Shown piece after piece: positions 1 to 63,960 of a DNA stretch of 64,000 bases. Made by a program: the position numbers and the translations under genes. Origin of the DNA: Prototheca cutis (taxonomy: Eukaryota; Chlorophyta; Trebouxiophyceae; Chlorellales; Chlorellaceae). The notes below the pieces were generated by a model. It was not told the origin of the DNA. It made no database searches and was given only the letters and a program-made list of their open reading frames with translations. The stretch is from contig BCIH01000008.1 in assembly GCA_002897115.2 (NCBI GenBank), positions 1,086,945-1,150,944 of the forward strand. The letters are read 5' to 3'. Each line of letters opens with the position of its first letter. The stretch's first letter is position 1.

Positions 1-1
1 G

Positions 2-577
2 GCCTGCACTGTGGCAGACTTCTTGGCGTACCTGCGCGTGTTCGGCCAAGTCGAGGCGACGCTCAGCAAGCACTATGCCAAGCCCATCTTCCGGAAGCTC
101 CGTCTTTGGGCGTACATTTACCGGCAAAAGGCCTACGCGGCGGCCATCGCGCGCCTGCGCAAGTTTGCGAACGGCGCGACGCTGGTCGTCGGCGACTGCT
201 CGCCGGGCCCGGCACGCTACCACGAGCCGATGCCACACGTCGGGCTGCTGCGGGCGCTGGTCAAGGCGGGGTTCAACGTCGTGCTCATCGACGAGTTCCG
301 CACCTCCAAGCGCTGCCCGGCCTGCNAACACGAGGAGTGCACGGTGGAGACGTTCCTCCGCGTGCCCAACCCACGCCCGTACCGCAGGGAGCAGACGCCC
401 GACGTGGTGTGCCACGGGCTGCTGCGCTGCACCAACGAGAAGTGCCGCCCCCCGAACGGCGAGCATCGTCTCTGGAACAGAGACTTGATGGCGTGTCTNA
501 ACATGAGGCACATCGTGGAGCAGCTGCGGAAGACCGGCAAGCGGCCGGACCGCTTCCAGCACCCAGCGCCGCAGTAA
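2..577 (+). CDS. Fanzor-like RNA-guided nuclease, C-terminal 191 residues (partial)
   Basis: The frame is open from base 2 to the TAA at 575-577; the N-terminus is outside the window. Visible motifs are GD in VVGDCS, then LIDEFRTSKRCPAC, which carries the RuvC-II glutamate and the first half of a zinc ribbon. The second cysteine pair follows in RCTNEKC, then WNRDLMAC with the RuvC-III aspartate. This order (DEF-TS-C-x2-C ... C-x4-C ... NRD-x2-A) is the hallmark of TnpB/Fanzor nucleases, and eukaryotic hosts carry the Fanzor branch. Known Fanzors are guided by an RNA encoded at the 3' end of the element. All zinc-ribbon cysteines are present here, unlike copy 2. Ambiguous bases at 326 and 499 leave two residues unread. 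The assignment to Fanzor1 rather than Fanzor2 is an inference. Confidence 0.8.
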   Translation, partial: ACTVADFLAYLRVFGQVEATLSKHYAKPIFRKLRLWAYIYRQKAYAAAIARLRKFANGATLVVGDCSPGPARYHEPMPHVGLLRALVKAGFNVVLIDEFRTSKRCPACXHEECTVETFLRVPNPRPYRREQTPDVVCHGLLRCTNEKCRPPNGEHRLWNRDLMACXNMRHIVEQLRKTGKRPDRFQHPAPQ

Positions 578-815
578 AATCCATCCTGGAAGGTTATAGC
601 CTTCCAACGGGGGTGGGAACTCCCGGGGCTCCTTCCCTTCCCCAAAAAGGGAAAGCAGCCCCGGAGGTGGTCCATCATTAAGATGGTCATCCACCTTCCT
701 ATTGCCATGCAAAGAGTGTGAAAATTTGCGGCCATCAGTGATGCCCAGCAACCCCCGGGGTGATGTGACGCTGTTGCCGGCTGAGCTGGTTGCATTATTT
801 TTGCCCTGCATGGTA
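578..815 (+). ncRNA. Structured Fanzor 3' tail, candidate guide (omega/f) RNA region, copy 1
   Basis: This is non-coding sequence between the nuclease stop and the inferred element end, conserved with copy 2. It contains a perfect 6-bp hairpin (588-593 with 600-605), a composite hairpin (625-630 with 657-662, inner arm 633-639 with 647-653), and a short hairpin (672-676 with 682-686) that is identical in both copies. In characterised Fanzor and TnpB loci the guide RNA scaffold occupies exactly this place and reads out across the right end. Whether this segment is transcribed as such is inference. Confidence 0.5.
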
Positions 816-1076
816 TGGAGGCACCACCCAGCTGGCTGGAAATGGGTTGGACTCTGGAACCTGATGCAGCGCCCGTTCTGGCCCGTGCCAGGACAGCTTG
901 CTCCACCACACGACCCTGCTAGGCTCCTGTCACAAGCAAGATGCGCGGGCGTGCGGAACGGCAAGGCAGATTGAATGAAAGGGAATGAAATGGCATGGAT
1001 GTCTGCGCCTGTGAGGGGCCCCCCAGCGGCATCGTCCTTGGTACACCCGCCTGGCCAGGGCCAAAGCCGGGCCACG
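816..1076. other. Intergenic, no feature seen
   Basis: This spacer lies between the element end at 815 and the stop codon of the minus-strand membrane-protein gene at 1077. It probably holds the 3' UTR of that gene. No other structure was recognised. Confidence 0.5.
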
Positions 1077-3039
1077 TCATGCGGGCAGGTTGCTGACCTT
1101 CCTGGCCGTCTGGCCCGGCACGACCTCGATCTTGCTCTGCTTGGTGCGCACGGCCGCCACCCACTCGTCAGTGGAGGGGTCCCTGCCTGTGAGCAGCGGG
1201 TCGGACTGCCGCGGCGCATCGGGGGCGTGCGAGTCTGCGCCGCCCCGCACCCGCTGCTGCGACCGGGACCTGCAGTGTGGTGATTGCGTGCTGGTTGTTT
1301 GCAAGGTGAGGCATTATCTTCTTGTTTGGAATCGTCAAACGAAACCGAAGCAGAGCAACTACTCGACCACACATACGCACCAGCCCACGATGAAGACCAG
1401 GGCGGCCAGGAGGCAGCACAGCGCCACGCCGGCCACGACCCCCCACCACCGGGCGTCCAGCTGGTCGGAGCTCCCATGGACATTGTGTGGCACCTGAAAA
1501 TGCAGGAGGAAACAGTGAGTGTGAGAGTTTACGTTGGAAAGGGCATCGCCCCAGGGCCCACTGCCTCCCAAGCAGCAAAGCAAAAAAAAATCTCGCCTGG
1601 GTGCGCGCGGCATCCTGCAGGGGTGCCACGATGATATCCGCAGCGTGCTGACGTGGGATGGTGGGTGGCTTATCGGCCGGGTCGGTAATTTCGCGTGTCT
1701 CGCCCTGCTCGCTACCGCGCTGTGGCCCAAAGATGGCAAACTGCGGCAGCTCCGCGACCGTGTCCTCGTCGCTAGAGTCGTTGGTGGGGTTGTCTAGCAC
1801 GACGGCGATGACGTCCTCCGCTGCCGGAGCAGCGCTACCAGGATCTGGGCCGGTGCGGACAACAGGGTTGATAATCACGGGCTCCATAGCCACGATGGAG
1901 CTCAGGTCGGCGCCATATCGGTCCAGGATCGAGTCAAACACAGCGGCCAAGTCATCGTCTCCCATCCTGGAAATGGGGTGTGTGGTGCTAGTGGTGAATA
2001 CGTGGTGGCGGTGAATTGGTGGCGAAGGAAGGCACTGTGCTGCTTGGTAGTGGAAATGTGCATGTATTGCTATCATTCCGGTGGCCCCAGACAACCCACG
2101 CCAGGGGTCGACTTTTCACTCCATTCCCCAGCAGTCAAACTGACACACCCGGCCAGCTGGTCCAGCCCGCTGCTGCCGCCCCATGGGTTGAAGCTGTCAT
2201 CGTCCTCGTCGTCATCAGGGTCAATGTACCTGGAAGCAAGGCCAGCGATAGCAGCAGCAGCATTGTGAATGCGGCAGCCTCGCCCGAGTGGCAAGCACTT
2301 GTTACATATGCCGCTGGACGCAGCCCCGCCAAACCCCCCGGGTCACGGCTGGGACATGGCCAGAGGTCGCCTGTCCTGTTTGAACAACATCGCATCAACA
2401 GAGACATAGCAACACGGCATGATACATTCGCACCAACAGCGCACACCAACACCCCTCATCCCACCGACCGGTAGTTGTCGAGGCTGGCAACGGTGATGAC
2501 CTGGAAGCCTGAGAGCTCGGGCATCTGGAAGAAATCATCCTCTGCAGACTTCAGCTTGCGTCCCGTCTGTACACTCGTGTCTGACAGCAGAGAGGACAAG
2601 GTGTCGTTCAGGGAGGTCAGGATCATTCCCGCCATGGCGTTGGTTGTGGCATCCACGGCCTGCGCTGTGGGCAGCCCCTTGGGACCCTCTCCAGCCGCGC
2701 CGAATATTTGCTGCAGGCCGTATGCCAGTTCCTGCAGCGTGTCCTGCGCTTCCAGTGCCAAAAGGTTGATTGGAATCTTGGCGAATTTGCTATAAGTCGC
2801 CGATGCCGCTGACAGCACCTCCTGCGAAGCGATGGGCGGGTGGGTGGTCGGGATGTGCTGCGCACACACGACTCGTCCGGGTTGTTGGGCCGGCAGGCGG
2901 CACATGCCACCAGCTCCCAGTCCCTGCCACACGGCGCCTAAATAAAACCCAGAAAACATACTTCTGGAGATGGTTCATTGCCCGCTAGTGCTCCATGCAG
3001 CAGCAGTGTGGCCGCGAGAAAGAGCGCGGCGAGGCGCAT
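1077..3039 (-). CDS. Predicted type I transmembrane protein, function unknown (6 exons)
   Basis: Exons 3039-2962, 2821-2469, 2229-2149, 1966-1630, 1493-1381 and 1269-1077 join in phase to give 384 residues. The start encodes a clear signal peptide (MRLAALFLAATLLLHGALAG). A lumenal or extracellular region of about 270 residues follows, including an acidic run (DPDDDEDDD). A single membrane helix (WWGVVAGVALCCLLAALVF, about residues 299-318) leads to a basic C-terminal tail of about 65 residues (TKQSKIEVVPGQTARK). The predicted topology is outside-in with a cytosolic tail. I recognise no domain. The clean phase agreement across all five introns makes the model convincing although the family is unknown. 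It could be a secretory-pathway or plasma-membrane receptor-like or cargo protein. Confidence 0.7.
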
Positions 3040-4931: not shown

Positions 4932-7900
4932 ATGTCCCTGGACATTGATGACCCACCCAACTCTCGCCTCTTTGTTGTCGCCGGGCGGTCCACCAGCGTG
5001 AGCAGCGGGGCACCCTGCCTTGCCCGCCCTGGCCTCGATGCTGGCCTGTACCCACACACCCTCCCATTCGTACTGCAGGCTGAGTTCCTAAGGGATGTGT
5101 TTGAGCAGTTTGGCACGGTGTCATTCGTCAAGTACCTCCGTGACAAGGGTGAGGAACCCGGGGGTCACTACGCCGACCCTTGTTGCCGCTGTGCCGTACA
5201 TTGCCAAGGACTTTAGCCGTCTGAATGCATCATGATGGTTGGTTTTGTGATTGATACCGCCTCGTGCTTGGTCGTCAGTGCCCCCCGCCGGCGAGCGCGA
5301 TCAGGGTGGTCATGCCCCGCCTCCTCCGCCCCGTGGCACCCGCGATGGCATGCCGTCGCGCCCGTCGGGCGGACATGGCGTGGCGGCATGTCTTGGGTCT
5401 CGGGTCGGGGCCCAAGCGGGCCGTGGGGGCCCGGCATGAGCTTCGTAATCGGGTCCTGACGTGTTGCGTCTCAACCCCGAACCCACCTTCCTCCTCAGGT
5501 GTGGCCTATGTCAAGTACGACCGTGCGTCATCTGCGGCTCTGGCGATAGAGACGTTGCATGAAGTAACATTGAACGATGGCAGAGGACCACGTTTAAAGG
5601 TTATTCTGGCCGACTCCCCACACATGAGGTGAGAGGGACACCAGAACATGGGCAGTCGTTGCAGCTGTGCGGCGGCGCCGCGCGCCAGCAAACCCACAAT
5701 ATTTGTTGGGCTGGCGGGTGGACTTGGGCTGCCTGCACCACTGATCTGGACTGTGCACATCCCATGTCTCATTGCATGCTGGTCTGGCCATGCCCAATGC
5801 ATGCTGGCTCATGTCCCCCTTGAGTCGTTGTTAGCCGGCTTAGAAGCTGGTACGGACCGGGGGGACCCCTCTGCCAGGTGGCGGCCATGCCTGTCGCCAA
5901 AGCCCTGGCTGCTGTTGCCCGGCACTTTGCATTCTTTTCTTGATTGTGTCCTTTTTTGTTTCTTTATTGTCCGTTGGAACGTACACCTTGCTTTCCAAGC
6001 AATTGGGCGATACATCCCATGCCCCGTGTGTGTGACGTCGGCCCTTCCCCGGTGGCGCTCTGGGGTCGCCAGACTACACCTGACAGGTGCCCCCTATGTC
6101 AGTCCCCTTTGAGTAACGTTCCCTCCCATACATGCAACGCAATGTACACTTGGCCATTGGTCCAGCCCAGCCGGGCCGACGTGCTCTTGCCGGCGACCGT
6201 TGGCACCCTGCCACGCCTCGCACTACAAACATCCTGAACTCATGTCCACCTTGCACACAGGAATCTTGGCACAGGCATTGCGATGCTGGGCGTCCCTCGG
6301 CCACGCGAGGACGCGGCTGTGGACCCCGACAACCTGCCGCCTCGGTCGCGGTTGTTCCTGGTTGTGCCCAAGAGCGCCGAGGGCTCCGCGATCGAGGCGC
6401 ACATGGCCCGGTTCCCCGGCCTCCAGTACTGCAAGACGGACCTGGTCGCATCCAAGGGCATCGCGTTTGCCAAGTACACGCGTGCATCGTCGGCCGCGGC
6501 GGCCATGGAGGCCGTGCAGGCGACGGGCACGGTGGCCGGGTACCGCGTCAAGATCATGCTGGCCGAGCCCAAGGTCCGGCGGTCGCCCAGCGCGGGCGTG
6601 CTGGCGGGCCCGGGCGTGCTGGCAGGGCCGGGCACGAGCGTGTCGGGGTTGGCCCCCCAGCTGGGCGCGAGCGGGCTGATGCAGCAGGGGCAGGGCCACG
6701 GCGCGCGTGCCGCAGCGCTATCGGCGCTGCTGTTCGCCGGCGGCGCCGGTGCGGGCGATGCAACTGCTGGCGCGGCATTGGGGTACGATCAGCTCCTTGC
6801 CGCGGGCGGGCTGCCCGGTGGCGTGCTGCCCGGGCTCCTGGGCGGCACTGCGGAACCGGGTGCGAGTCTGGGCGTTCCAGGCGCGGGTCCCGTCGCGGGC
6901 GCGGCGGGGTTTGCCTCGCCGGGTCCCTTTGACCTGAGCTTTGGCATGATGGGGCTCTTTGGTAATAGTCCGGGTGCTGCGGCGACTACAGCGCATGGCG
7001 CCGACGCGGCAGCTGTGGCCGCGGCCATGGGCATGGGAAGCATGGCCGGCTTTTCTGCAAACACCCCCGTTGCGGTCGCGGCGCCGACGCCCTCTTCCTC
7101 GGGCAGCGCGGGCGCGGGGTTCCTGAGCCCTCTGACGCCTTCGTTGTCTCCCGCTGCACCAAATGCTTCGACCACCGCGGCGGCGACGGCCGCTGCGGCT
7201 GCTTCGGCGCTCAACCGCCACCGTCTGTTTGTTGTCCTGCACAAGAGCGTGGGCGAGGAGACGGCAGCGTGCCTGTTCCGCGCCTTCCCCGGCATGGAGT
7301 ACTGCGATTTGAAACGCGAGCGCGGCACGGGGCGCTCCAAGGGCTATGCCTACGTCAAGTATGCGGGCGCCGAGGGCGCGGCCGCGGCCGTCGCCGCGCT
7401 GCACGGCGCCGAGTTCCCGCCCGGGTCGGGGTGCCGCATGAAGGTCATGTACGCCGAACCGGCCATGCACCGTGTGCGGTCGGGGTCTGTCGACTCGTCC
7501 TCGGCCGACACGGGCACGCAGTTTTGCCTGCCCGACGAGCACCGGACAGCGGGAATGATGGTTTCGGATGACAAGGGCGTCAGCGTTGGTGGTGTGGGCG
7601 GGGCGTCGGCGACGCCGACGTCGGCCACGCCGCCGCGCGGCGATGGAGCGGCCGCCGGCGACCAGGCCGGCGCTCGTCATCATGGAGGACACCCGCCGGC
7701 GCGGTCGGTGAGCCCGCCCAGCCCCCAGTTGGAACCTGGGGCCTACGCGCTGGCCACCCCCGCGCCGGCGCCGCGGCCCATGGCGGCGCTCGATGCAGCA
7801 GCCGACGGCGCCGCCGTTGCCCACCGCGCGCCGCTGGGGTCGCCGCTGCCCGGGTGGGACGCGGCGTGCGCGCTGGGTTGCGGCGACGGCCTGGGGCCCG

Positions 7901-8652
7901 CGCCGGGCTCGGCGGCCTCGGCGACCGAGCCCGCGGGCGAGCACGTCGGCGCGGCGCGCCTGCGTGCGCTGTCCTCCCCCAGTCTTTTGTCGGCTGGCAC
8001 GCCTGACCTGCTGGGTTCGCGCCTGGCCGGGTTTTGCTTGGATGACGTCGATTGTGCCCGCTGCGGCCCTGCAGCGGGGACGCCCTCGTCGCTGCTGTCT
8101 TCGTCGTCCACGGCCGTGGGCGCTGCGTTGAGCGACGGCGGCTACCACCCGCAGCACCGCGGCGGGGTCGTCGGCATGGCGGCGGCGCCGCATCAACAGC
8201 AGCAGCAGCACCAGACGGCAAAGAACGACGGCGCAGCCACGCCGCAGAGCGCCCCGGCGCTATCGGCTTCGCTGCCGGGGTCGTGGCACGACCTGAGCCT
8301 GGCCGCGGCGGCGGGGAATGGAAGCATGAGGGGCAACGGTCTGGCGTCGCCGCTCCTTCCTGTCGCCATCCCAGCTGCTCCTCCCACGAACACTTCCGAC
8401 AGCGACGACGGGACGCTGGTTTACTCGGCGCTGACGCGTCCCCTGCCGGACTTTGCGCTGAGCCACGTGTTTTCGCAGTGCGGTCCCGTTGAGTTCGTGC
8501 GCATGCTTGGCGACGATCGGCTGGCGCTGGTCAAGTACCGCGACGCAGCTTCGGCGCGGCGCGCCGTCGCGCTGCTGCACGGCACGCAGGTCCTGGGAGA
8601 GGTGCTCAGCGTGTGCGCGGGGCCGCCCACGGGGGTCGGCGCATCCGCCTGA
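4932..8652 (+). CDS. RBM45-like RNA-binding protein with four RRMs
   Basis: Exons 4932-4997, 5079-5148, 5499-5628 and 6261-8652 join in phase to 885 residues. RRM1 (about 11-88) is spread over the first three exons and opens with DDPPNSRLFVV, very like the start of animal RBM45. RRM2 (about 118-190) has RNP1 SKGIAFAKY, RRM3 (about 408-490) has SKGYAYVKY, and RRM4 is at about 807-878. Long Ala/Gly/Pro/Ser-rich linkers separate RRM2, RRM3 and RRM4, and a poly-Gln stretch lies near residue 740. RBM45 is a nuclear RNA-binding protein linked to RNA processing in animals; a similar role here is inference. Much of the large last exon is also open on the opposite strand, but that frame is Arg-rich nonsense. 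Confidence 0.85.
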
Positions 8653-13261: not shown

Positions 13262-16200
13262 TCACTGGCGGCGGGCGGATGTGGCCCATTCCGCAGCGTT
13301 CTGGAACATCTTGAGCCATGGCGAGGGGTCGCTGGGCTTGAGGCCCGTGGACTCTGGCCACCAGGGGTTTTGCCACATCTGCAGGCAGCGCTCGGGGTGG
13401 GGCATGAGCGCCAGGTGGCGGCCGCACGGCGAGCACAGCGCGGCGACTGCGTCGGCCGAGCCGTTGGGGTTGTAGGGGTACTCTTGAGTGAGTTCACCGG
13501 CCGCGTCGACGTAGCGGATGGGCGCCAGGTGGCGGTCGACCACGTCGCGCTTGACGGTCTCCGAGGGGAACATGGCCCTGCCCTCGCCGTGGGCGGCCCA
13601 GACACCCAGCGTCGCACCGCCCATGCCCTTGAGCATGACCGCGGGGCTGTCACCATCGATGGTCACGTTGACCCACCGGCACTCAAACCGGCCAGAGGCA
13701 TTGTGCGTGAAGCGTGGTTGCTCCGCGTCGGGGAGCTGAGGCCCCGCGACCCCGGCGCCCGTCCCCGGCACCCAGCCCAGCAGTGCCATGAGCTGGCACC
13801 CGTTGCACACGCCCAGCGAGAACGTGTCGGGGCGTGCGTAGAAAGCGCGGAACTGCTCCAGCAGACGGTCGTTGAAGCGGATGGTCGCCGCCCAGCCCTT
13901 GGCGCTGTCCAGCACGTCGGCGTAGGAGAACCCGCCGGGGAAGATGATGCCCTGGAACGACTCGAGGCTCACCGTGCCCGACAGCAGGTCGCTCATGGTC
14001 ACATCCCACGGCTCCATCCCGGCCATTTGCACTGCAACGGCCATCTCGCGGTCGCCGTTCGTGCCCTCCTCGCGAATCACGGCCACGCAGACCTTGTTTG
14101 GAGCGGCGAGCTTGTCCGCGGGCGTCCAGGCGGGGACATAAGGCAGCTTCCAGACAGGCGCCTGCGCCTTGGCCAGCGCGGCACGCTCGGAGCTCACCGT
14201 CTCCTCGGCCGCCTGCCGCTTCTCCAGCTCAAAGCTGGTCGCCTCCCACACATCACGCAGCTCCGCCACGTCACCTGTCATTTTTGCCGGAGGGAGGGAG
14301 CACGCAGTCAGTTGGTGTTGATGATGATAGGAGGTGTGCAGCAGATGGATAGAGAACAATCAGCAGACAATGAAACAAAGATTGACGTACCCTTGACAAC
14401 GCTGCGGCCGTCGACGGCAACGGAGATTCCAGCATCCGACTTTGTCTTGCCGATGACAACGGCGGGCACGCCTGCGGCAGCGTACGCCTCGATGACCGCA
14501 CCCTCTTGACCCGTGGGCACCTCCAGGATCAGGCCTGGCTCCTCGGCAAAGAGGGCGGCGAGCGTGGGCAGGCGCTCTTCCCGCGCACCCGCCAGGTTCA
14601 GCTCCAGGCCGCAGTTTCCGGCGAAAGCCATCTCCAGCGCCGCGACCGCCAGGCCGCCGTCCGAGATGTCGTGCCCAGCGAGCACCAGGCCCGGCTGGCG
14701 GATCAGGCGCTGGGTGACGTTGAACGCGTCACGCAGCTGTGCAGGGCTCACATCGGGGCAGTCGTCGCCGATCTGAGCATACGCCTGTGCCAGCGCACCC
14801 GCGCCCAGCCGCCGCCGGCCATCTTTCGCGAGGTCGACGTGGATCAGAGTGCTACCTCCAGCCTTCTTGAGGTCGGGCGTCACAACCGCAGTGACGTCGG
14901 GGCAGCCGACGTAGGCCGAGACAACCAGGTTCCCAGGGGCCAGCACCGTCTCACCGGCCGCAGCAGCGGCCATGGACAGCGAGTCCTTGCCGCCGTCGAT
15001 GCCGACGCGCAGCGTGGCCATGGCGTCACGCATGGCGTGCGCGGCATCCACCATTGCCGCCCCCTCGCCGCCGACCTTGGCCGCGTACATCCAGTTGACG
15101 CTGGCCTTGACGTCCTCCAGCGCGGTGATGGGAGCCCAGACCAGGTTGGTAAGCGATTCTGCCACTGCAAGCCGTGCCATGGCCGCGGGATCGATCAGCC
15201 CTTTGATCGGCGCCTCGCCGATGGCCGTCGCAGCGCCTGATTTCGCATACAGGGATTGCGCCATCACCGCGACGTCGGCCAGGGGCGTGTGCAGGGGCCC
15301 GACGCACTGCTGCTGGGCCACCAGGCCCGTGACGCAGCGGTCCACCTTGTTGGTCAGGAAACGTTTGCTGCACACGGACGGCAGGCGCAGCACGCGGTCC
15401 AGCGCCTCGGCAGGGTCGGTCTCCAGCGTCCCGGGCAACTCCAGCGCATTCAACTGCGGCACGCTGCGCTCAAACGTGTAGCTCTTGTTGGGCATGTCAC
15501 CCAGGACGTGCTCCAGGTCGAGATCCACGGGCGTGGGCGCGTCGGCCGGCGCCGCCGGGTCGACGACCCGCACGCGGCCCGAGCCGTCGATGGAGCCGAT
15601 GACCTGCATGCCGCAGCGCTCGCGCGCAGCGATGGTCGCCAGCACGGACTCGTCCGCCGGCCGGATGAGAAGGCAGTCGTTCTCCTGGTACTCGGCGCCC
15701 CAGATTTCAAGGACCGAGAGGGAGGCATCGCCAAGTGTGACGTTGCGGACGTTAATTTCGGCACCAAGGGGATAGATAATCTCCTTGACGACGTTGCAGT
15801 TGCCACCCGCGCCCTGGTCGTGGATCTGCTGAATGGGGTTGGCGTCGCCCAGCTCCACGCACGCGCGCACGACGCGCCACAGCTTCTGCGCGACTTCCGC
15901 GTCGCCGCGCTGCACCGCGTTGAAATCCAGCTCAGCGGAGTTAGAACCCGAGGGCACGGAGGAAGCCGCGCCGCCGCCCATGCCGATGCGGTACGCCGGC
16001 CCGCCCAGCTTGACCACCAGCATGCTGACCTCGGGCGGATACTTCTCCAGGTGCCTGTGGTCGATCTGGCCCAGGCCCCCCGAGAACATGATGGGCTTGA
16101 TCCACTCGCGGCGCTCGCCGTTGGGCAGGCGCTGGCCGAAGCTGCGGGTGTACCCAGCCACCAGGGGCTCACCAAACTTGTTGCCGTAGTCAGACGCGCC

Positions 16201-17622
16201 ATTGGACGCGTCGGTCAGGATCTGGCGTGGGTGCGCCAGCGACGCGGGGTACTCTTCGGCGTCAGCGCTCTCCCAGGGCATCTCGTAGCCCTCGAGGTGC
16301 AGGTTGCCGACGCAGTATCCGGCCGTGGCAACGCCCATCATGGAGCCGATGCCCGTGGCATGCGTGTCGCGGATGCGGCCGCCCGCGCCGGTCTCGGCAC
16401 CCGGGTAGGGCGCCACCGCGCAGGGGAAGTTGTGCGTCTCAGCGGTTAGCAGCAGGTCCAGGTCGCGGGTGGCCTGGGTGAGTCTGCCCGGCCGGCCAGG
16501 AGTCTCGGGCAGCAGGGTGGGCACCGCTCCACCGCGGAGCGCGGAGGAATTGTCCTTGAAGGCCAGGACAGAGTTGTCGCCGGAGGCCTTGAGCGTGCTC
16601 TTCACCACCTGCATCAGCGACTCGGGCTGGACCACGCCGTCGACGGTCAGGTCGGCCCGGAAGAACCAGTGCCGGCTGTGCTCGCTGTTGCTCTGCGCAA
16701 TGTCAAACAGCTCGACGTTTGTCGGGTCGCGCCCCAGGCGCGTGCCAAACATCTCGGTGTAGTAGTCCAGGTCCCAGTCGTCAAAGGCCAGACCCATCTC
16801 GCCATTGATGCGCTCCAGAGCTGCACGGCCCTCGGACAGCACGGGGACCGTGAACACGGGGGCGGGCACCGCACTGCTCGCAAAGCTCGTCAGGGGGGCA
16901 GCGTACACCTCCTCCGTCATGCGGTCGTGCACCTGTTCATTAATTTGTTGAGTGGGCGAAGTGCTTGGCGTGTGCATTTGGAATAGAACGGAGGATGCTT
17001 GATTCATTGTATCCCTGCATTCACTTCACCCTCAACCCCACCACCCAACCAAAAAACAATCGACTCGCAGCCACACTGGACTTACCATGGCGGCAAAGTC
17101 CTGGACCTGGTCGGCAGTCGCGGCACCGCGCAGGAGGAAGCGGCGGCTGACCTCGACTCGGTCGATCTTGGCCAGGCCGACGGAGGAGCAGATGCTGACG
17201 GCGTTGGCGCTCCAGGCTGTGCTGAAATTCATGCGGGGGCCGACTTCGAGGACGCTTGCGCCCGAAGCCACGGTGGCAAAGCTCGACTCGGCCGTCAGCC
17301 TCTCGGGTTCAAACGTCTCGCGCAGCAGCCAGGCCAGCGTGCCCGCCTCGGCGGCCGTCAGTGGCGCGGTCAGCGACACATTGAAGCAGACCTCGGTGTC
17401 GAGAGCCGCCACATCGGGCAGGGGGCCGCGCTGCGCCGCGTGCAGCAGCGTCGCCGTCTTGGACGCCGACAGGCCGGGCGTGCGGTAGAGCTGCAGCACG
17501 CCGGGCCCAGCGGCGACCAGCTTCTCCTGCACCGCTGCGATGGCAGCCGCAGCGGTGGGCGAGGGGGCCGGCGCCTGCAGGGCCGAGTGCGTGAAGGCAG
17601 GGAGAGGGGGTTTTGGCGTCAT
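13262..17622 (-). CDS. PFAS: Phosphoribosylformylglycinamidine (FGAM) synthase
   Basis: Exons 17622-17086, 16932-14391 and 14274-13262 join in phase to 1363 residues, normal for the large one-chain FGAM synthase. The enzyme converts FGAR plus ATP and glutamine to FGAM, step four of purine synthesis. In order there are an N-terminal PurS-like region, two PurL ATP-binding halves (SNSEHSRHWFFR, ETHNFPCAVAPYPGAETGAGG, IHDQGAGGNCNVVKE, HDISDGGLAV) and a class I glutamine amidotransferase. The last contains nucleophile FSLGVCNGCQLMALLG and the His-Glu pair in HPERCLQMW. Plant and algal forms are usually organellar, but no strong transit peptide is obvious in the first 30 residues. Large frames on the opposite strand are shadows. 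Confidence 0.96.
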
Positions 17623-34276: not shown

Positions 34277-34855
34277 TTATGTCATGTGGGCGTTCAGGCC
34301 AACGTGTGCTGGTCCACCACCATTCCTGGAATCTGTTGCTCTTGCTAGAAAGGATGCCGTGGGCTTGAGCTCGTGTCTGCAGCGTTTTGGGACCATCTGT
34401 TGCGTTGAAGACATGATGGTTGGCCGGGCATCCCATGATAACCAATGGGGCATGGACAAGAGGGGCCTGGGGGCTCATGCAGGCCACAATCCCCCAAGAT
34501 TGGGTCGTGGCACGACTGTGGAAGCCTCAGAAAGAGGCGCAATCAGAACAGAAGAATGACTCTGCTAGCACATCTTGCTGCAGCAAGACATCTGGAGTGA
34601 CGTGTTTTCCGAGAAAGCAACTGGCCTGCTTGCCTTCCAATGGCTAGCCAGATCATGGCAGGACTGGCAGGCGCAGAAACATGCCCCCTTGGCCATGACC
34701 GCGTTGTAATGGTATTCGTCATGTCTGACCATGGCCACGTGAAATGTGAATGATGGCGGTCGCGTGTCCTCCGTTTCATGGACACGATCCAAATCTAACA
34801 GATCGTGCCCGAGTTCCGACACTATCAGAAAAGATATGAGGTCGCTTTGTATCAT
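34277..34855. other. Spacer, no gene seen
   Basis: This contains the 3' flank of the KDO8P synthase gene up to the right end of Fanzor element copy 2. No feature was recognised. Confidence 0.5.
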
Positions 34856-35101
34856 TACCATGCAGGGCCAAAATTATGCAACCAGCTCAGCCAGTGACAG
34901 CGTCATATCACCCCGGGGGTTGCTGGGCATCACGGATGGCCGCAAATTTTCACTCTCTGCAGGGCCATAGGAAGGTGGATGACCATCTTAATGATGGACC
35001 ACCTCCGGGGCTGTTTTCCCTTCCCGGGGGAGGGGAGGAGCCCCGGGGGTTCCCACCCCCAGTTGGGAAGGCTATAACCTTTCAGGATGGATACATGTTC
35101 A
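34856..35101 (-). ncRNA. Structured Fanzor 3' tail, candidate guide RNA region, copy 2
   Basis: This is the counterpart of 578-815 in copy 1. The 38-base composite hairpin keeps its outer stem (GGGGCT with AGCCCC) while the inner arms have several changes, most of which leave the bases able to pair. The small CCATC/GATGG hairpin is identical. The first hairpin of copy 1 is weaker here because of one mismatch. Confidence 0.45.
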
Positions 35102-36238
35102 TCAGCACTGCGGCTTTGGGCACTGGAAGCACAGAGGCCGCTTGCCGGTCTTCCGCAGGTGTTCCACGATGTGCCTCATGTTCAGACACGCCATCAAGTC
35201 TCTGTTCCAGAGACTATGCTCGCCCTTCAAGGGGTGGCACTTCTCGTTGGTGAAGTGCAGCAGCCCGTGGCACACCACTGTGGGCGTCTGCTCCCTGCGG
35301 TACGGGTGTGGGTTGGGCACGCGGAGGAACATCTCCACTGTGCACTCCTCGTGTTTGCAGGCCGGGCAGCGCTTGGAGGTGCGGAACTCGTCGATGAGCA
35401 CGACCTTGAACCCCGCCTTGACCAGCGCCTGCAGCAGCCCGACGTGCGGCATCGGCTCGTGGTAGCGTGCTGCGCCCAGCGAGCAGTCGCTGACGACCAG
35501 CGTCGCGCCGTTCGCGAACTTGCGCAGGCGCGCGATGACCGCCGCGTAGGCCTTTTGCCGGTAAATGTACGCCCAAAGACGGAGCTTCCGGAAGATGGGC
35601 TTGGCATAGTGCTTGCTGAGCGTCGGCTCGACNTNGCNGAACACGCGCAGGTACGCCAAGAAGTCTGCCACCGTGCAGGCCCTGGTGCCATTGGGCACCT
35701 CGGTGGCCAGGCGCCGCAGGGCCTTGCGCACACCCTTGGTCATGAGCCTCTGGAGCAGCCTCCGGAACTTGCGTGACCGTGTGAGGAACACTCACTCCCT
35801 GCTGCTGATCCGCATGGTCAGGCGGCGTCCCTTCCCATGGCTCGAGTCCTCGTGCATGCAGTACATCAAGTCCCTGCGGCTGGGGTCGATGAACACACAC
35901 TTGCCCAGCTGCTCCAGCTCCTCGGGGCTGAGGTCATCGACGTAGCGCAGGCCCTCGAGGCCTCGGCGTCTCACGACCCTGCGTCGTGCGGCCGGCTGCT
36001 GTGTATCCGCGCGGTCCTGCTCCTTCCGGCGGTCCTTGACGTTGAGGATCAGGTTCATGGTGCCCCGCACATTGTTGCCAAAGTACTTGCGAACGTTGGC
36101 CTCCACCGCTGCGCACTGGGTTTTCCCCCCAGTACTTGGCATCCTGCACGTCAAGCAGAACGGGAACTCACGAGCTGATGTCGACTTGGCTCTCCTAGTC
36201 GTCCAGAAGACCGTGGAACCTGCGCTGCCAGGTCGCAC
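35102..36238 (-). pseudogene. Fanzor-like nuclease with an in-frame stop
   Basis: One reading frame runs from 36238 to the stop at 35102-35104 but is interrupted by TGA at 35794-35792, between ...MRISSRE and VFLTRSRK. The first half carries the RuvC-I segment KCVFIDPSRRDLMYCM. The second half carries LIDEFRTSKRCPAC (RuvC-II Glu) and WNRDLMAC (RuvC-III Asp), so all three acidic catalytic residues remain. The second zinc-ribbon pair is damaged: copy 1 reads RCTNEKC, this copy HFTNEKC. Three ambiguous bases lie at 35633, 35635 and 35638. Further N-terminal coding sequence probably lies in another frame at about 36195-36350 (AKRMARDFWGSGREVHQNAM), joined through an intron. The best reading is a decaying copy. 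Confidence 0.75.
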
Positions 36239-36419
36239 GCACTGACGCCTTGACGGTCGTCATGGCGTTTTGGTGCACCTCCCGCCCACTACCCCAAAAG
36301 TCGCGGGCCATTCGCTTTGCACCCGTTATTGTAATGGGTACCTGAAATAGGAGGTCAGCGGGGAGTCCCCGTATGTTATACCGAGTTCCCACTGGCCGAC
36401 CCGCCTCGGGAAACCTGGT

Positions 36420-36470
36420 GTCGTGCCAGGGGGTCAATTTCCGGGACCTTCTAAAACCTCCTGGCACGAC
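36420..36470. repeat. 11-bp perfect inverted repeat
   Basis: GTCGTGCCAGG at 36420-36430 is repeated as CCTGGCACGAC at 36460-36470 with a 29-base loop. It lies upstream of the Fanzor coding region of copy 2, where the left end of the element would be expected. Confidence 0.6.
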
Positions 36471-36480
36471 CCGTCCTACT

Positions 36481-37220
36481 GCCGAGAAGGAGCCAAACCC
36501 ATCCTCTGAGCGACGCGGCTAGGGAATGCGGTCCAACAGGCATTTCGTCTGATAAACATGCCCTTGCTGTGCAGGTGGGAGTCGACCAGTCTCGAGAAGG
36601 TTTCATCATTTTTGCCCTGCACTGTAGAGATACGTTCCTCTGGGCAGTGCGCGGGGTGCATCAGTACCGCCATGATTATAACGTGCTCCGATGGCACAAT
36701 ACTCGAGCCTTCTTTTTGTATTTTGCTTGTCCAGCACAAGGCGTGCCGTGATCTGATCGACAACCCTGGCCGCCACATTCTGCGGCGCACTGCACAGTTC
36801 GCACGACGGTCTGGATTGCACGAGGCCAAGCACAGCTACTGATCCATGCTTTTGGAACCATAGAACGTGATTCTCTTGTTTTGCTCGTCTGGAATAGGCG
36901 CAGCGGTTATACGAGCAGCCAAGTCTGGGCCCCAACATACCGAGGTGAGCTTGCCGCGTTCAGCCAGTGCCTGGGGGAATGGACATTTGGATGCAATACT
37001 GCCCAAGCACAGTCACTGCTGAAACAGTTTCATGATGAACTGTGTCACGCCAGTATGAGGGTGACTGGAAATGCAAGCCGGTTGCGAATGGGCACTGCAT
37101 TGTCTGGACTGGGTTTTCTATACATGCACCATCTAGAAACCCCGGCAAAACAGACGGTTGGACTTAGCAGGAGTCCCTGTTCATGCAGACATGCTGAGCT
37201 CCGGGACTGATGCTTGCCGG
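36481..37220. other. Spacer, no gene seen
   Basis: This lies between the inferred left limit of Fanzor copy 2 and the helicase start. It should hold the helicase promoter. A short plus-strand frame at 36881-37210 has no domain. Confidence 0.45.
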
Positions 37221-38555: not shown

Positions 38556-38622
<67 letters not shown>

Positions 38623-40364: not shown

Positions 40365-40452
<88 letters not shown>

Positions 40453-45314: not shown

Positions 45315-45373
<59 letters not shown>

Positions 45374-46073
45374 ACCCCCCACCCCCCCACGCACACGACT
45401 CCAACTCACTCATGGTGGCAAAGCCGAAAGCAAGACCAAAGCCCATTGACAGCCAACCCCAGCCGTAGCCATTGCCCTGCAAGAAGGAAGGCCACAAATG
45501 TGGTTTGAATGTGCCATGATGATACGGTGAAGCCATGGGCTACGGTCATGGTGGTCATGGTGTGGGGTGGATGGCGGGATGGGGGTCCGGGGCCAACAAT
45601 CCGAGCAAATGATGCAGTTGATCCAAGGAGCAGCGCAGGGAAGCCTCGGTAAAAGGTTGAATTTTGCAGGAAAAGGTGCCACAAAGCCAGGGAGATGTCC
45701 AGAGGAAGCAGTGATGCAGTCATCCACCATGCTAGCACATCCTCAAACCAGCGTCACCATGCCAGCATGACCAGTCACCACGACCGACGTCGCCCCTATC
45801 AATGTGGCCCTTTCGAGCGCGCACCTTGGCTTTGCCCAGCAGCATGTTGGCCACCGCAGAGTCCCCGATGTACATCTGCAAGGGTGCGAGTGTGCGTGCA
45901 GTACGGGTTCGGTGTCGTCGTCCGCACCGACACAGATGCGCGAGCCGCCGCCTGTATTGCACGCGCGCGTGACCCCATCCTTCACTCACCGCAAGCATCA
46001 TGCCGACAATCTCGGTGCAGCATCTCGCACCGAGGCTGTACGCGCCCGGAGGGCTGAAAAGCGGCGAAATCAT
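44012..46073 (-). CDS. Aquaglyceroporin-like MIP channel with a large coiled-coil insert
   Basis: Exons 46073-45990, 45875-45825, 45476-45410 and 45159-44012 join in phase to 449 residues, far longer than GlpF (281). TM1 includes CCTEIVGMMLAMYIGDSAVAN, TM2 is GWGWLSMGFGLAFGFATM, and the first NPA box is SASFNPSGNL (NPS instead of NPA). The second box is GLAVNPARDLGPRIAHWILP, where the Asp after NPAR is typical of aquaglyceroporins. TM6 is PVIAPFCGGAAAGGIYLLL. Between TM3 (SELLGAFLGAVLVWLTFLPHF) and TM4 (FSTRPAIYAPLHNFLCEF) there is an insert of about 185 residues. It has an acidic start (PEPPEEEE) and a charged coiled coil (about 190-252). The channel should pass glycerol or similar solutes. 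Glycerol kinase is the next gene upstream on the same strand. Confidence 0.87.
45317..45373 (+). repeat. C57 homopolymer in aquaporin intron 3
   Basis: Fifty-seven consecutive C (G in the transcript) inside the third intron, about 37 bases below the splice donor. Confidence 0.9.
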
Positions 46074-51026: not shown

Positions 51027-52606
51027 ATGGCTACCCCCAATGCAAAGCAGGCCCGGCGCATGCCCGGGGGGGTGCAGCTCTTTCAGCCAGACGCACATAT
51101 CCCCAGCCGGCGGCAGCAGCAGTACGAGACTGCAGAGGCTCGAGTCAAGGGAATACTAGCTGCAGTGCCCGAGGCCTGGACATCAACTGGCAGCCCCGAT
51201 CCGGCCAGCAGGCACAGCGTGCTGCTGTCGGCACTGGGCGAGGCAGAGCGCGCTGCGGCAGGCTTGCCCCCCGCGCGCCAGCTGGCGCTCCTGGTGTCCA
51301 GTCTGGCGGAACTGTCCACGTCGCCCCTTGCGGCAGGGCTGGACGTCCACAGCGTCACACGACCGTACGCTGAGCTGTTTGCCAAGACGCTCGCGGCCCG
51401 GCGCCGCGGGGCCTCGCCCAGCACGCCGTCAAGCGCCCTCCCCGCCCCGCCCAGCCGCGCCGCTGCGCTGGGGGTGTGGTCGGCCCTGGCGGGGTCGTCG
51501 TACCCCATGAGTCACCGCATGCTGGAGCGCCTGGCTCGGGCCGTAACTGGCGGGCTTACCGGCTTGACCACGGACCAGGTCTGCACTGCGCTGTGCTGCA
51601 CGCTACGCTACGCGTACGAGCCGGGACGGGGGGCGGTGGCCGCGGCGCTGGAGACCGAGCTTTCTTCCCGGCCACCCGGCGAGTTTACACCGCAGGCCGT
51701 GCAGTCGGTGCTCCTGGCAGGGCGGCGGCAGGGCAAGTCGCTGCCTGCCGACCTGGTCGAGCACCTTGCGCTGTGCACTCTGGGCCACATCGCCGCGCGT
51801 GATGTCGACTTGCTCACCCTGAGCAGGTCCTGGAACCTGCTTCTCCATTTCCCGGCCACGCCCCTGCACCCCAAAGTCGTGCGGTCTGCCATGGGGGAGC
51901 TGTGGAGACAGCTGTCCGACGCTGATCCGCAGGGCCTGGCGTTTTGCCTGCTGGCCCTGGAGCAGTCGGGCATGAAGCTGGGGCCGGGCCTGTTGGAAGC
52001 CTCGGCCGCGCGGTTGGGACAGCTGGCGCCGGGGAGCATCCCGCCCGATGCCCTGGCTTCCTGTCTCTGGGTCTACGGCCGCCTGAAATGGCACCTGCCC
52101 GCGCAGCAGCCCGGCGCGGTCAACAGGCTGGCTGCCCAGGTGCTGGCATCGGGCGCCACCATGGACGCCAGGGGCGTGGCCTTTGGACTCCCCACGGCGG
52201 TGGCGCTTCCTGAGCCGCAGGGGGGCACGCTTCCCGAGACCCTGGGATTCCAGCGCCTGGCCATGGCTGCCAAACGAGCACCCGGCGCTGGTGGTGGCGA
52301 GCTCGGATCCGGCCCAGACCTGGGATTTGATGCAACAAATGCCAGGGCGACTGGCGGTGCAGATGCGCAATTCACAGCAGCACCGCTGGCACTCGACGAC
52401 GCATCGCTCCGTGCTTTCTTGGCACGCAATTCAGCCCAGCGGGCGACCATGGCCGCACGTGTGGCCACAGCCGAAGTCCTCACTGCCACAAACAACATTG
52501 TCGCCGCCATCAGAGCAAAATACCGCCTGGGCACGGTGTGTGTATTCGTTGTTTCTTTGTGTTTAGGTGGGGAGTTTGCATGCACGTGTGTGTGTGTGTG
52601 TGTGTT

Positions 52607-52672
<66 letters not shown>

Positions 52673-60420: not shown

Positions 60421-63000
60421 TCATGCTGGCGTGATGGCCTGCACGGTGGCGCCCACGAGGCTCTGAACGTAGGCCAGCTGCTGGGCAAGCCTTTTCACAG
60501 CCGTGCTGCCATCAGTTCCCTGAGCGTTGGGGGTTAGGGGATTTTGAGTCGGGTGAGCACAATTCCCCCGCTTTGCTATCCACAATCCTAGTCCCCCCGG
60601 ACGCACACGCGCGCACGCGCACATACACACACAAATGCTCTCCCTCACCTGGTGCTGAGTCAGTTCTGACAGGCATCGCTCAGCATCGGCCATTACGATG
60701 CTGACCTTGTCCTGTAGGATGCACCGCAGTGCTTCCCGTTCTTTTTCCAACGTTTCCACCTTGGCTCCGAGATGGCTGGCAAGCTTGGCCTCTGCACTCT
60801 GCGGCAGGGCCGAGTCCGTCCCTGCCAGAGACGGTTTGGCTGGTAGAAAGCTTGTGGCCAGACGGGTTGAGCCCACCTGAGCCAACCCGGGGTCAAAGTC
60901 CGCGAGCCCACTGCCGCTGGAACGCAGGCTCGCCGCAGGGCTCTGAAACACACTGCCCCCACCAGCATCGTCGTTGTAGTCCTGAACATTGATGAATTGA
61001 TGCAATTTTGTTTTGGAGATTTCAGACAGCAGACAGTTGATTCTGTACTAGTTGGGTGATGCTGTTTTAGGGTTCTTTGTCAATCCCCCCCCAAAAAACA
61101 CCTACACCCATACCCACCCACACCTGACACACACCCCAACAAGCGAAACGTACCACGAGGTGTGGGCGGCTGGGCACGCCACTGCTGCCGGTATCGCTTG
61201 TGCCCGTGCGGGCAGTGACCATGATGGGCCCGGTCGGAAGACCCTCCACGCTGCCGCCACTGTGCCGCACCGGCCGCAGCGCCGCGACCTGCCAGTCGTC
61301 CCCGTCCTGCTCCGGTTTTGTGGTGCCGCCAGCTGACTCGCCGGGCACAGCGCCGCCCCGCACTTCAGTCACTTCCCGTCGCAGCAACAGCAGCTCTGCA
61401 GTCCGACTGTCCAGCTGGTCCTCCAGTTCCCTGAGAAACAGGGAGACAAGGGAGCTCCGGCGACGGTGAGAACGCGGTGTGCTTGGTCGCAGGGGCTTTA
61501 CCCATGCATCTCACTGCAGGCATACTGTGCTCAGAATGAATGAACCAGATCCCGCCTCATGCCTTACCAAAGAAACCATCAGAGATATCCCATTATCACC
61601 AACTCAGCAGCACCTGGTGCGCGTGGCTGCAGCTTCGACAGTGGTCTGGAGCCCCAGCACTTGGGCATCCCGCTCGGACAATCGCTGCGTCAGCGCGGCC
61701 AGGACATCGCGCTGCTTGCGCAGCAGGCCCCGATACCTGTCCAGCTGCGCGGCGCCTTCCGCGGCCGACTCGCGCTCGGCCTCCAGCTCGGCGATCCGAG
61801 TCGCATAGGCGTCCCGGATCCGGGCCTGCTCCGCGGCGAGCAGTTGCCGAAACTGTGGTGTCTGTTCCAGACGCTGGCCTCCCACCAGGAGCTGGCTCTG
61901 CAGCAGGCTGATGCGGCCCTGCAACGCCGCCATGGCGGCCTTGTGCCGCATGATCTCCGCGCTCTGACGCTCCAGCGCGCTGATCGCCGCGAGCTTGTCG
62001 GCCTGCTCCCGCCGTCGAGCGGCGTCCAGCTCCAACAGCAGTCGCTTGTCCACCAAGTCCCGCGACCGCTGCTGCAGCTCGGCACGAAGTTTCTTCAACT
62101 CCTGTTCGTACCGCCGCAGGAGTGTCCGATGGTCCAGATCCTCATTCAGCACGGGTGCATTCCGCACATTCTTCGCTCGATTCGCAAATTTAAGCGTCGA
62201 CAGCGACTCTGCAGGTGGTATCGATGGCGGGGAGTTGTGGGTGGAGTTTGGGGGCTGTGGATGCTATTGCCGTCTCGCACGGCCCAACCCAGCTCAAGCC
62301 CCCCCAACAAACAGGTACCCTGGAAAGCCTCGACTGCGGGACTGATCATGGCCAGGAAGGTTGTCTTGCAGTTGCCACCCAGACTATCCTCCAGGATCCT
62401 CGTCAACTTGCTATCCCTGTAGGGAACGTGAGGGCGATCGCGGTGGCGGCCGGGCCCCGCCGGCGTGCCCGCCGCCAGCGCGGAGATGACGTTGCCTAGT
62501 GCACTCAGACTCTGGTTGATTTTCTTACTCTCTTCCAGGCGCTGACCCGTGGCACCCGTCACGTGCACACGCTCGCTCCCCGCCAGGTCCACCAGGTTGA
62601 GCTTGCCTACCCGCACCGTCTGGCGCACACCCGTCCCGGGCCCCGCGGCAGCTGCGGCGGCCGCGGCGTCATCGCCGGTGCCACCCAGCGCGACTGCGGC
62701 TGCCAGGGCACCACTGGCCCCGGCCTCAGCCCCCGGCTCGGCGGAAAAAGTGGCTTTTTCCACAGTCAGTTGGAATATGGCGTGGGAACGGGAACTGAGC
62801 TCGTTCATCTTGGTCGCGCCCGTCGCCCGGGCAGCAGCGCCTTGCCGCATCAGCATGAACACCTCCTCTGGTGTCCGTACTACCCACTCCGAGAGGCCCT
62901 CGACGTGGACGCCACGGCGCCGGTCCTCCCGCACGCTCAGATTGGTGCCGCTGGGTTTCAACAGATCCGAGATTACCTTCAATTTGTTTGGACATGAGAG

Positions 63001-63069
<69 letters not shown>

Positions 63070-63960
63070 GAAGAGGGAAGGGAGGTCTCTCTTCAAACCG
63101 ACAACAACAACAATAGCAAAGCCGCCTTCTGCACACCTGCCCAGTAAATAAAATCAAGCCGTGGTTAAAAAACGGACCTCGTTGTAAATCTGAAGATACG
63201 ACGCTCTGACCAGGAATCGGCAGGCCTCGCCCTTGTGCCGCAGAATGCTTGCAAACACATCCTGTATGGCGCGGGGGATGATACCCGCATGTTCGCCCTC
63301 AGCATCGCCCTCCATCGTGTACGTCTTGCCCGTGCCCGTCTGGCCATAGGCAATGATACTCGCATTGTAACCCTGTATTGTTTGGGTGCAATGGGTGGTG
63401 GATTCACAAAGTGTGGGTTTCACACAGCAACACCAGTACAAACAGCCACTGAGGTAGTACCACACCTGCAGGACGTTCAGAACCGCCGGCTGGGCGCATT
63501 GGTTGTAGACTTCATCTTGCGCCGCGTCCGGTGCATACACACGATCAAAGGCAAACCGATATGTGTTGTAGACCTGTCCAGGGGGCATGAGGGGACAAGA
63601 AGGGGCATTCGGTTTCTATTGCCATGGGGAGCTAAAGCTCCATGATAGGGCGGCTGAGACAGCTTGCATATGGCAGCCCAGGAGGTACCGAGCTGCAACA
63701 TATGGTTCCCTGCCATCATACCCCCGCTTGCCCTGTTGAGAAAGCATGGTCCAGGAGCACCAAGAGGACACCCAGCCATCGATCCCATCCATGCATGCGC
63801 GCACCATGCCTCCCTCCACTCCAGAATTTGCCAGGGCCGCCAAATTTTCTGAGAGTGTGATCTGCCTGCCGGAGCCATCCACCGACACGGCATCTCGGTA
63901 GCCCATGTATCCAGACAGCTCTCTCGGCAGCGGCGGTCGCACCCGGATCACCACCTGCAT
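60421..63960 (-). CDS. Kinesin with N-terminal motor (5' end near the window edge)
   Basis: About eight exons. The motor starts MQVVIRVRPPLPREL (ATG 63960; an upstream exon may lie beyond the window) and continues VYNTYRFAFDRVY. It then has the P-loop IAYGQTGTGKTYTMEG, switch I NELSSRSHAIF, switch II LVDLAGSE, KINQSLSALGNVI and YRDSKLTRILEDSLGGN. The neck region is LKFANRAKNVRNAPVLNEDLD, followed by a long coiled coil (61.6-62.1 kb) and a Ser/Gly-rich tail ending at 60421. An Ala/Gly-rich insert of about 50 residues precedes switch II. Kinesins move along microtubules using ATP. The subfamily is not certain; the NEDLD-type neck does not match kinesin-1, -5 or -14 closely. A (GT)n repeat fills one intron. 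Confidence 0.9.
63001..63068 (+). repeat. (GT)n microsatellite in a kinesin intron
   Basis: About 30 GT units, inside the intron between the exon ending IYNE and the exon starting VISDLL. Confidence 0.93.

Follow-up and report, generated by a model that had tools for sequence, protein, structure and literature searches.

The window analyzed here, a stretch of 64,000 nucleotides from Prototheca cutis (contig BCIH01000008.1, positions 1,086,945 to 1,150,944), contains two copies of a DNA transposon. The element is bordered by TA duplications, has inverted repeats of mariner type, and encodes a protein identified by its sequence matches as a Fanzor1, a eukaryotic relative of the CRISPR nuclease Cas12. 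In the searched genome (19.9 Mb, 23 contigs), T[C/G] stands directly before the TA at 52/72 left ends of this family vs 18/81 right ends (p 4e-10). Because of this one-sidedness and of a parallel in Spizellomyces, T[C/G]TA (TSTA) is likely to be the target-adjacent motif (TAM) of the Fanzor.

The Discussion of Saito 2023 (PMC10432273) states that it is unknown what Fanzors do for their carriers. Derivatives that outnumber the Fanzor copies, and the idea that Fanzor helps these in trans, have already been published there for Spizellomyces. The left-versus-right flank asymmetry is new here and constitutes one useful line of evidence in a known type of system; no such flank test was found in the Fanzor literature as far as it was accessible, and no other paper on this family was found by title and abstract opening, neither of which is proof of absence. 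Many independent insertions, several protein-less derivative classes and a one-sided motif together offer a statistical handle on the role of Fanzors, and they lead to the prediction of a TAM T[C/G]TA with a guide beginning after the TA.

Flanking sequences of the element ends

For the comparison of flanks, right ends were read outward in the same sense as left ends; as background, of the TA dinucleotides in the window, 15.4% are preceded by T[C/G]. A C or G at position −1 was present at 69/72 left and 45/81 right ends (p 2.3e-9). In a paired test of 53 elements, T[C/G] occurred only on the left in 31, only on the right in 5 and on both sides in 7 (p 1.3e-5). The bias was also visible in 13 loci retrieved after the motif had been seen, with T[C/G] at 9/12 left vs 3/11 right ends (p 0.039); for C or G at −1 the counts were 12/12 vs 5/11 (p 0.0046). 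The left flanks represent separate loci, as 71 of the 72 25-mers are distinct; three mutually similar left flanks (L060, L067, L092) were kept in the counts. At these three loci, two elements lie back to back, left end against left end.

Under a fixed rule, 72/76 left and 81/94 right ends had a TA no more than 3 bases away from the expected border, and the ends without it (4/76 left; 13/94 right, some of these near a locus edge) were left out, as were ends beyond the reach of the profile (match start after position 12 or end before 455) and the loci L024 and L036, which are the window copies again. A first count under another rule gave C or G at −1 in 58/60 left and 38/68 right ends; the fixed rule gave 57/60 and 40/70 for the same first set.

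The terminal inverted repeat at the left end of copy 2, CAGTGCAGGGCAAAAATG, mirrors right ends of the type TTTTTGCCCTGCATGG; we take these repeats to resemble those of Tc1/mariner elements. Among the 72 left ends the repeat occurs in two forms, GCAGGGCAAAAATG (40/72) and ACGGCAGAAAATG or alike (32/72), of which the second pairs less well with the right end, the latter being mostly of one form. The motif accompanies both left-end forms (28/40 and 24/32).

Identity of the encoded protein

The sequence-only reading had proposed a Fanzor-type protein with the signature order DEFRTS, CPAC, second cysteine pair and NRDLMA, and both proposals hold for copy 1 (Table 1). In searches of PDB chains, its protein matched PpFz1 of Parasitella parasitica (PDB 9CF0-9CF3) at E 1.7e-32 and SpuFz1 at E 4.4e-20, and a longer genomic copy, E35, matched them at E 2.1e-56 and 8.5e-30, respectively; GtFz1 was matched only at E 0.85 and 1. 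E35 reads FIDPGRGD at RuvC-I and contains DEFRTS, that is, the signature of DPG plus relocated Glu described in PMC10711439, and the four-cysteine zinc ribbon followed by RD is present in both copy 1 and E35. Likewise, PpFz1 has DPGR at RuvC-I, the relocated Glu in DEFRTS, a four-Cys ribbon and NRD. A Fanzor fold with RuvC was recovered, and no closer kinship to Fanzor2/IS607 TnpB than to Fanzor1 was found. An unrelated zinc-ribbon protein, the alternative named in the sequence-only reading, could be suspected from the score of copy 1 against the Pfam domain TNB (21 bits, below the cut-off of 26.3), but it is refuted by the hits to Fanzor1 chains of solved structure and by the fold match obtained for the relative P0004.

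Among the tblastn alignments listed for E35, those of the RuvC part were good and those of the N-terminal part weak. The N-terminal lobe part of E35 also aligns with PpFz1; E35 has a long Gly/Ala/Arg-rich stretch ahead of RuvC-I. A region search returned 57 database relatives, whereas a first protein search and a profile search returned 2 and 1, respectively, probably because they were swamped by Gly-rich words. To a Parasitella protein (P0032), 56% of the query could be aligned at 40% identity. In a tree of 38 rows, P0003 and P0004 form a pair (100/100) that clusters with unnamed rows next to the named fungal group but outside it; because of long branches, nothing finer can safely be drawn from this tree. 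A single scan of viral contigs with copy 1, sensitive to close relatives only, revealed no viral relatives. In P0004, the closest relative in the database, the NRD of the other proteins is replaced by GRN, so that Asn takes the place of the third catalytic Asp, a replacement also reported for GtFz1 (PMC11423790). The fungal relative P0005 (Coemansia biformis) is named Transposase by one source. The region N-terminal to its Fanzor portion looks transposase-like.

Genome-wide family and ghost elements

The protein of copy 1 is matched at least 152 times in the genome, a lower bound since 150 of 302 candidates were scored in this search. Among the matches listed, 13 (87-100% identity, both window copies included) span at least 190 of 191 residues, and 3 more span 188-190 residues at 69-72% identity. 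A sister subfamily, 69-72% identical, has three copies within 7 kb (C4:1444102-1451013; L040, L042, L043). Most of the remaining listed matches begin at residues 104 to 151 since, as read from the DNA, the short copies are internally deleted. A search with the left-end DNA gave 40 scored matches among 301 first-look candidates.

From the retrieved loci, 61 complete short elements with shared junctions and both ends kept were obtained, and these are ghosts, i.e. derivatives comparable to miniature inverted-repeat transposable elements. The ghosts fall into three main classes: class A (16/61), in which the right end resumes at positions 1-5, class B (23/61), in which it resumes at 19-23, and elements of 358-371 bp (19/61); 3/61 measure 687-704 bp. 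In classes A and B, the left end stops near positions 165 and 172. There was no sign of coding constraint in the ghosts, the mean minor frequency by codon position being 0.061, 0.044 and 0.052.

Comparison with known systems

In Spizellomyces punctatus, 42 Fanzor1 loci of Spu-1 stand beside 134 ghost loci (Saito 2023, PMC10432273). As in the family described here, the Spu-1 ghosts retain the two termini together with the RNA region of the right end (a predicted one here) and outnumber the protein copies, and conserved bases precede the left repeat; according to the sections cited, no transposase was found inside. Unlike in Spu-1, the ghost classes here vary in how much of the coding end they retain, and the motif is another one. 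For Spizellomyces, there are measurements of the omega-RNA and of cleavage (PMC10432273). The TAM of PpFz1 is ATN (PMC11423790), compared with T[C/G]TA predicted here; that of SpuFz1 is CATA by our interpretation of the same source, in which the order of GtFz1 and SpuFz1 is ambiguous and TTAA is later given for GtFz1.

Fanzor1 genes lying alone between mariner-like repeats with TA duplications, e.g. PUl-4, were described by Bao and Jurka (2013, PMC3627910); these elements have the same layout in other hosts, a likeness by description and not by end sequences. The three Chlamydomonas elements described in the sections cited of that study are Helitrons. The most abundant repeat of Auxenochlorella encodes a Fanzor and was called uncharacterized (Plant Cell 2025, PMC12636532), and was compared with the present family by description only. 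Hundreds of Fanzor copies were remarked on by Yoon 2023 (PMC10711439).

Proposed mechanism and alternative explanations

The findings are probably best accounted for by a Fanzor1 transposon whose nuclease, guided by omega-RNA, would cut the empty allele at the one-sided motif. Transcription of the right end would yield an omega-RNA in which the scaffold reaches as far as the TA and the 14-20 bases of flank that follow serve as guide. The few coding copies would supply the Fanzor protein in trans, and this protein would cut an empty allele bearing T[C/G]TA followed by a match to the guide, after which repair from the occupied chromosome would restore or copy the element. Insertions beside a matching TAM would persist better, so that the one-sided motif remains. 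Fanzor1 right-end RNAs run about 15 nt past the target duplication, and inverted repeat and duplication were predicted to be part of the scaffold (Yoon 2023, PMC10711439); by this model, the scaffold of copy 1 would end at 815 and its guide would start at 816. A 76-nt block at the right end is conserved across elements.

Several results weigh against this proposal. In four stretches the fold z-scores were −0.09, −0.70, +1.04 and +1.03, shuffled sequences folding about equally well, and RNAalifold on 81 right ends predicted 12 pairs, 2 of them with a change on both sides. The 76-nt block was not significantly better conserved than the left-end body, the coding remnant and the 3′ region of ghosts (p 0.057, 0.23 and 0.23; ghosts with at least 10 N excluded). 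The sole hit of an Rfam search of window positions 1-1200 was a weak one to mir-4484 (E 0.46), far below the cut-off. No RNA structure is therefore claimed; these tests neither support nor exclude a scaffold at the right end, which is predicted from position. In the later loci, T at −2 alone was non-significant (9/12 vs 4/11, p 0.10). The Tc1/mariner transposase domain PF13358 was not found, with a working control that matched in 3; PF01359 and PF03184 were not found either, and their controls were silent too. As the element contains no transposase as far as read, its mobilization probably depends on one encoded outside it.

An orientation-specific preference of that transposase could also create the motif, and a one-way-inserting enzyme is the main rival to the TAM reading: with unequal ends and one-orientation insertion at an asymmetric target, the motif would arise with no part for the Fanzor in persistence. 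The left and right ends are indeed unequal, and the left end exists in two forms. However, Tc1/mariner enzymes are known to use a palindromic TA target, and a symmetric transposase landing there either way would be expected to leave mirror-image flanks. Since the motif occurs with both left-end forms, it does not depend on one end sequence; moreover, its side is the one on which the TAMs of Fanzors are located, and a conserved CA before the left repeat is also present in the Fanzor elements and ghosts of Spizellomyces (PMC10432273). Overall, we consider a transposase acting alone unlikely. A fossil family, whose nuclease is no longer produced and whose motif reflects nothing but former activity, is a serious possibility that falls somewhat short of even. 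In the window, each copy is either damaged or incomplete, and 36 longer ghosts have a mean pairwise identity of 86%, but the frames of E30 (708 codons) and E35 (748 codons) are open over the main coding part with intact motifs, though with scattered N.

Within omega-RNA-guided cutting, it is tentatively suggested that ghosts act as mobile guide RNAs: each ghost would read its own insertion site as guide, Fanzor supplied in trans would cut the empty allele, and mainly T[C/G]TA insertions would persist and spread. If so, the genome would contain a large collection of natural Fanzor guides specific to their sites, and what Fanzors contribute to transposons would be documented in the genome by the one-sided motif.

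Copies and further features in the window

The two copies form an inverted pair of three blocks, 1-575 vs 35107-35681 (93% identity), 609-718 vs 34951-35060 (91%) and 713-815 vs 34856-34958 (92%), a likeness far above chance in all three. The sequence-only reading had reported an element present twice in 36 kb with a common 3′ terminus. The pair is real and its right ends are alike (TTGCCCTGCATGGTA and TGGCCCTGCATGGTA), but it makes up only 2 of the at least 152 genome matches, and copy 2 reaches 36626 instead of 35681. The frame of copy 1 is open from base 2 to the stop TAA at 575-577. A run of N directly before base 1 hides its front half, the RuvC-I part included, for which reason copy 1 is not completable here. 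It keeps all zinc-ribbon cysteines, as had been noted, and copy 2 lacks one; with its front half under N, copy 1, the preferred candidate for activity in that reading, is not callable as active. Copy 2 has lost about 1.6 kb internally, reads DPS at RuvC-I and is no working gene. Neither window copy can be called active.

Table 1. Positions of element features within the window.
Feature	Position	Strand	Basis
Copy 1, 3′ part of Fanzor1 coding sequence, 191 aa plus stop, entered from run of N	2..577	+	translation
GDCSPG, RuvC-II position, without canonical Glu as in Fanzors	191..208	+	alignment to PpFz1, motif survey
DEFRTS, carries relocated catalytic Glu of Fanzors	290..307	+	sequence; Glu place from PMC11423790
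CPAC, zinc ribbon Cys pair 1	314..325	+	sequence
RCTNEKC, zinc ribbon Cys pair 2	425..445	+	sequence
NRDLMA, RuvC-III with third catalytic Asp	476..493	+	sequence, PpFz1 alignment
Predicted omega-RNA scaffold, copy 1	740..815	+	position alone
Right terminal inverted repeat, copy 1	798..813	+	sequence
TA target-site duplication, right side, copy 1	814..815	+	sequence
Predicted guide, copy 1 (flanking sequence)	816..835	+	inference
Predicted guide, copy 2 (flanking sequence)	34836..34855	-	inference
Copy 2, TA-to-TA element, 1.77 kb, internal deletions	34856..36626	-	sequence
Right TA, copy 2	34856..34857	-	
TTC (Phe) replacing zinc-ribbon Cys, copy 2	35252..35254	-	sequence
In-frame TGA past RuvC-I stretch, copy 2	35792..35794	-	sequence
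Deletion junction, copy 2, ~0.96 kb of E35 missing	36015..36021	-	comparison with E35
Deletion junction, copy 2, ~0.63 kb of E35 missing	36156..36161	-	comparison with E35
Left terminal inverted repeat, copy 2	36607..36624	-	sequence
Left TA target-site duplication, copy 2	36625..36626	-	sequence
TC adjoining left TA of copy 2, giving TCTA, a T[C/G]TA motif	36627..36628	-	sequence

A second Fanzor-like family was identified in the same genome (loci L011-L023 on contigs C1-C8 and C12), with the motifs VFMGNASFRHN, DEFRTSQ, ICSAC and NRDVNAARNI in this order and extra sequence between DEFRTS and the zinc ribbon that is probably an intron. Twelve of its right ends terminate at GATCGTACCCCACCC or close to it, followed by differing flanks, and a mariner-like repeat was not detected at any of these loci. 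Its member P0002, an open frame probably reading through the intron, matched Pfam TNB at 48 bits; a PDB search with P0002 returned no Fanzor chain and chance-like matches, mostly to the Gly-rich stretch.

Six-frame genome searches, which introns can hurt, detected no light-harvesting protein genes (the control matched in Synechococcus) and no Chitin_synth_1 (the control was silent too); one gene for DXR of the plastid isoprenoid pathway was found on a 2.3 Mb contig. The missing light-harvesting hits and the DXR gene would both be compatible with a colourless, Prototheca-like green alga. A genome search for the repeat TTTAGGG found none. Elsewhere in the window are a gene with RNA recognition motifs (6238-8649, plus strand), a formylglycinamide ribonucleotide amidotransferase gene (14311-17025, minus strand), and long stretches of G or C as well as GT repeats near 38570-38621, 40367-40450, 45317-45375, 52580-52670 and 63000-63070.
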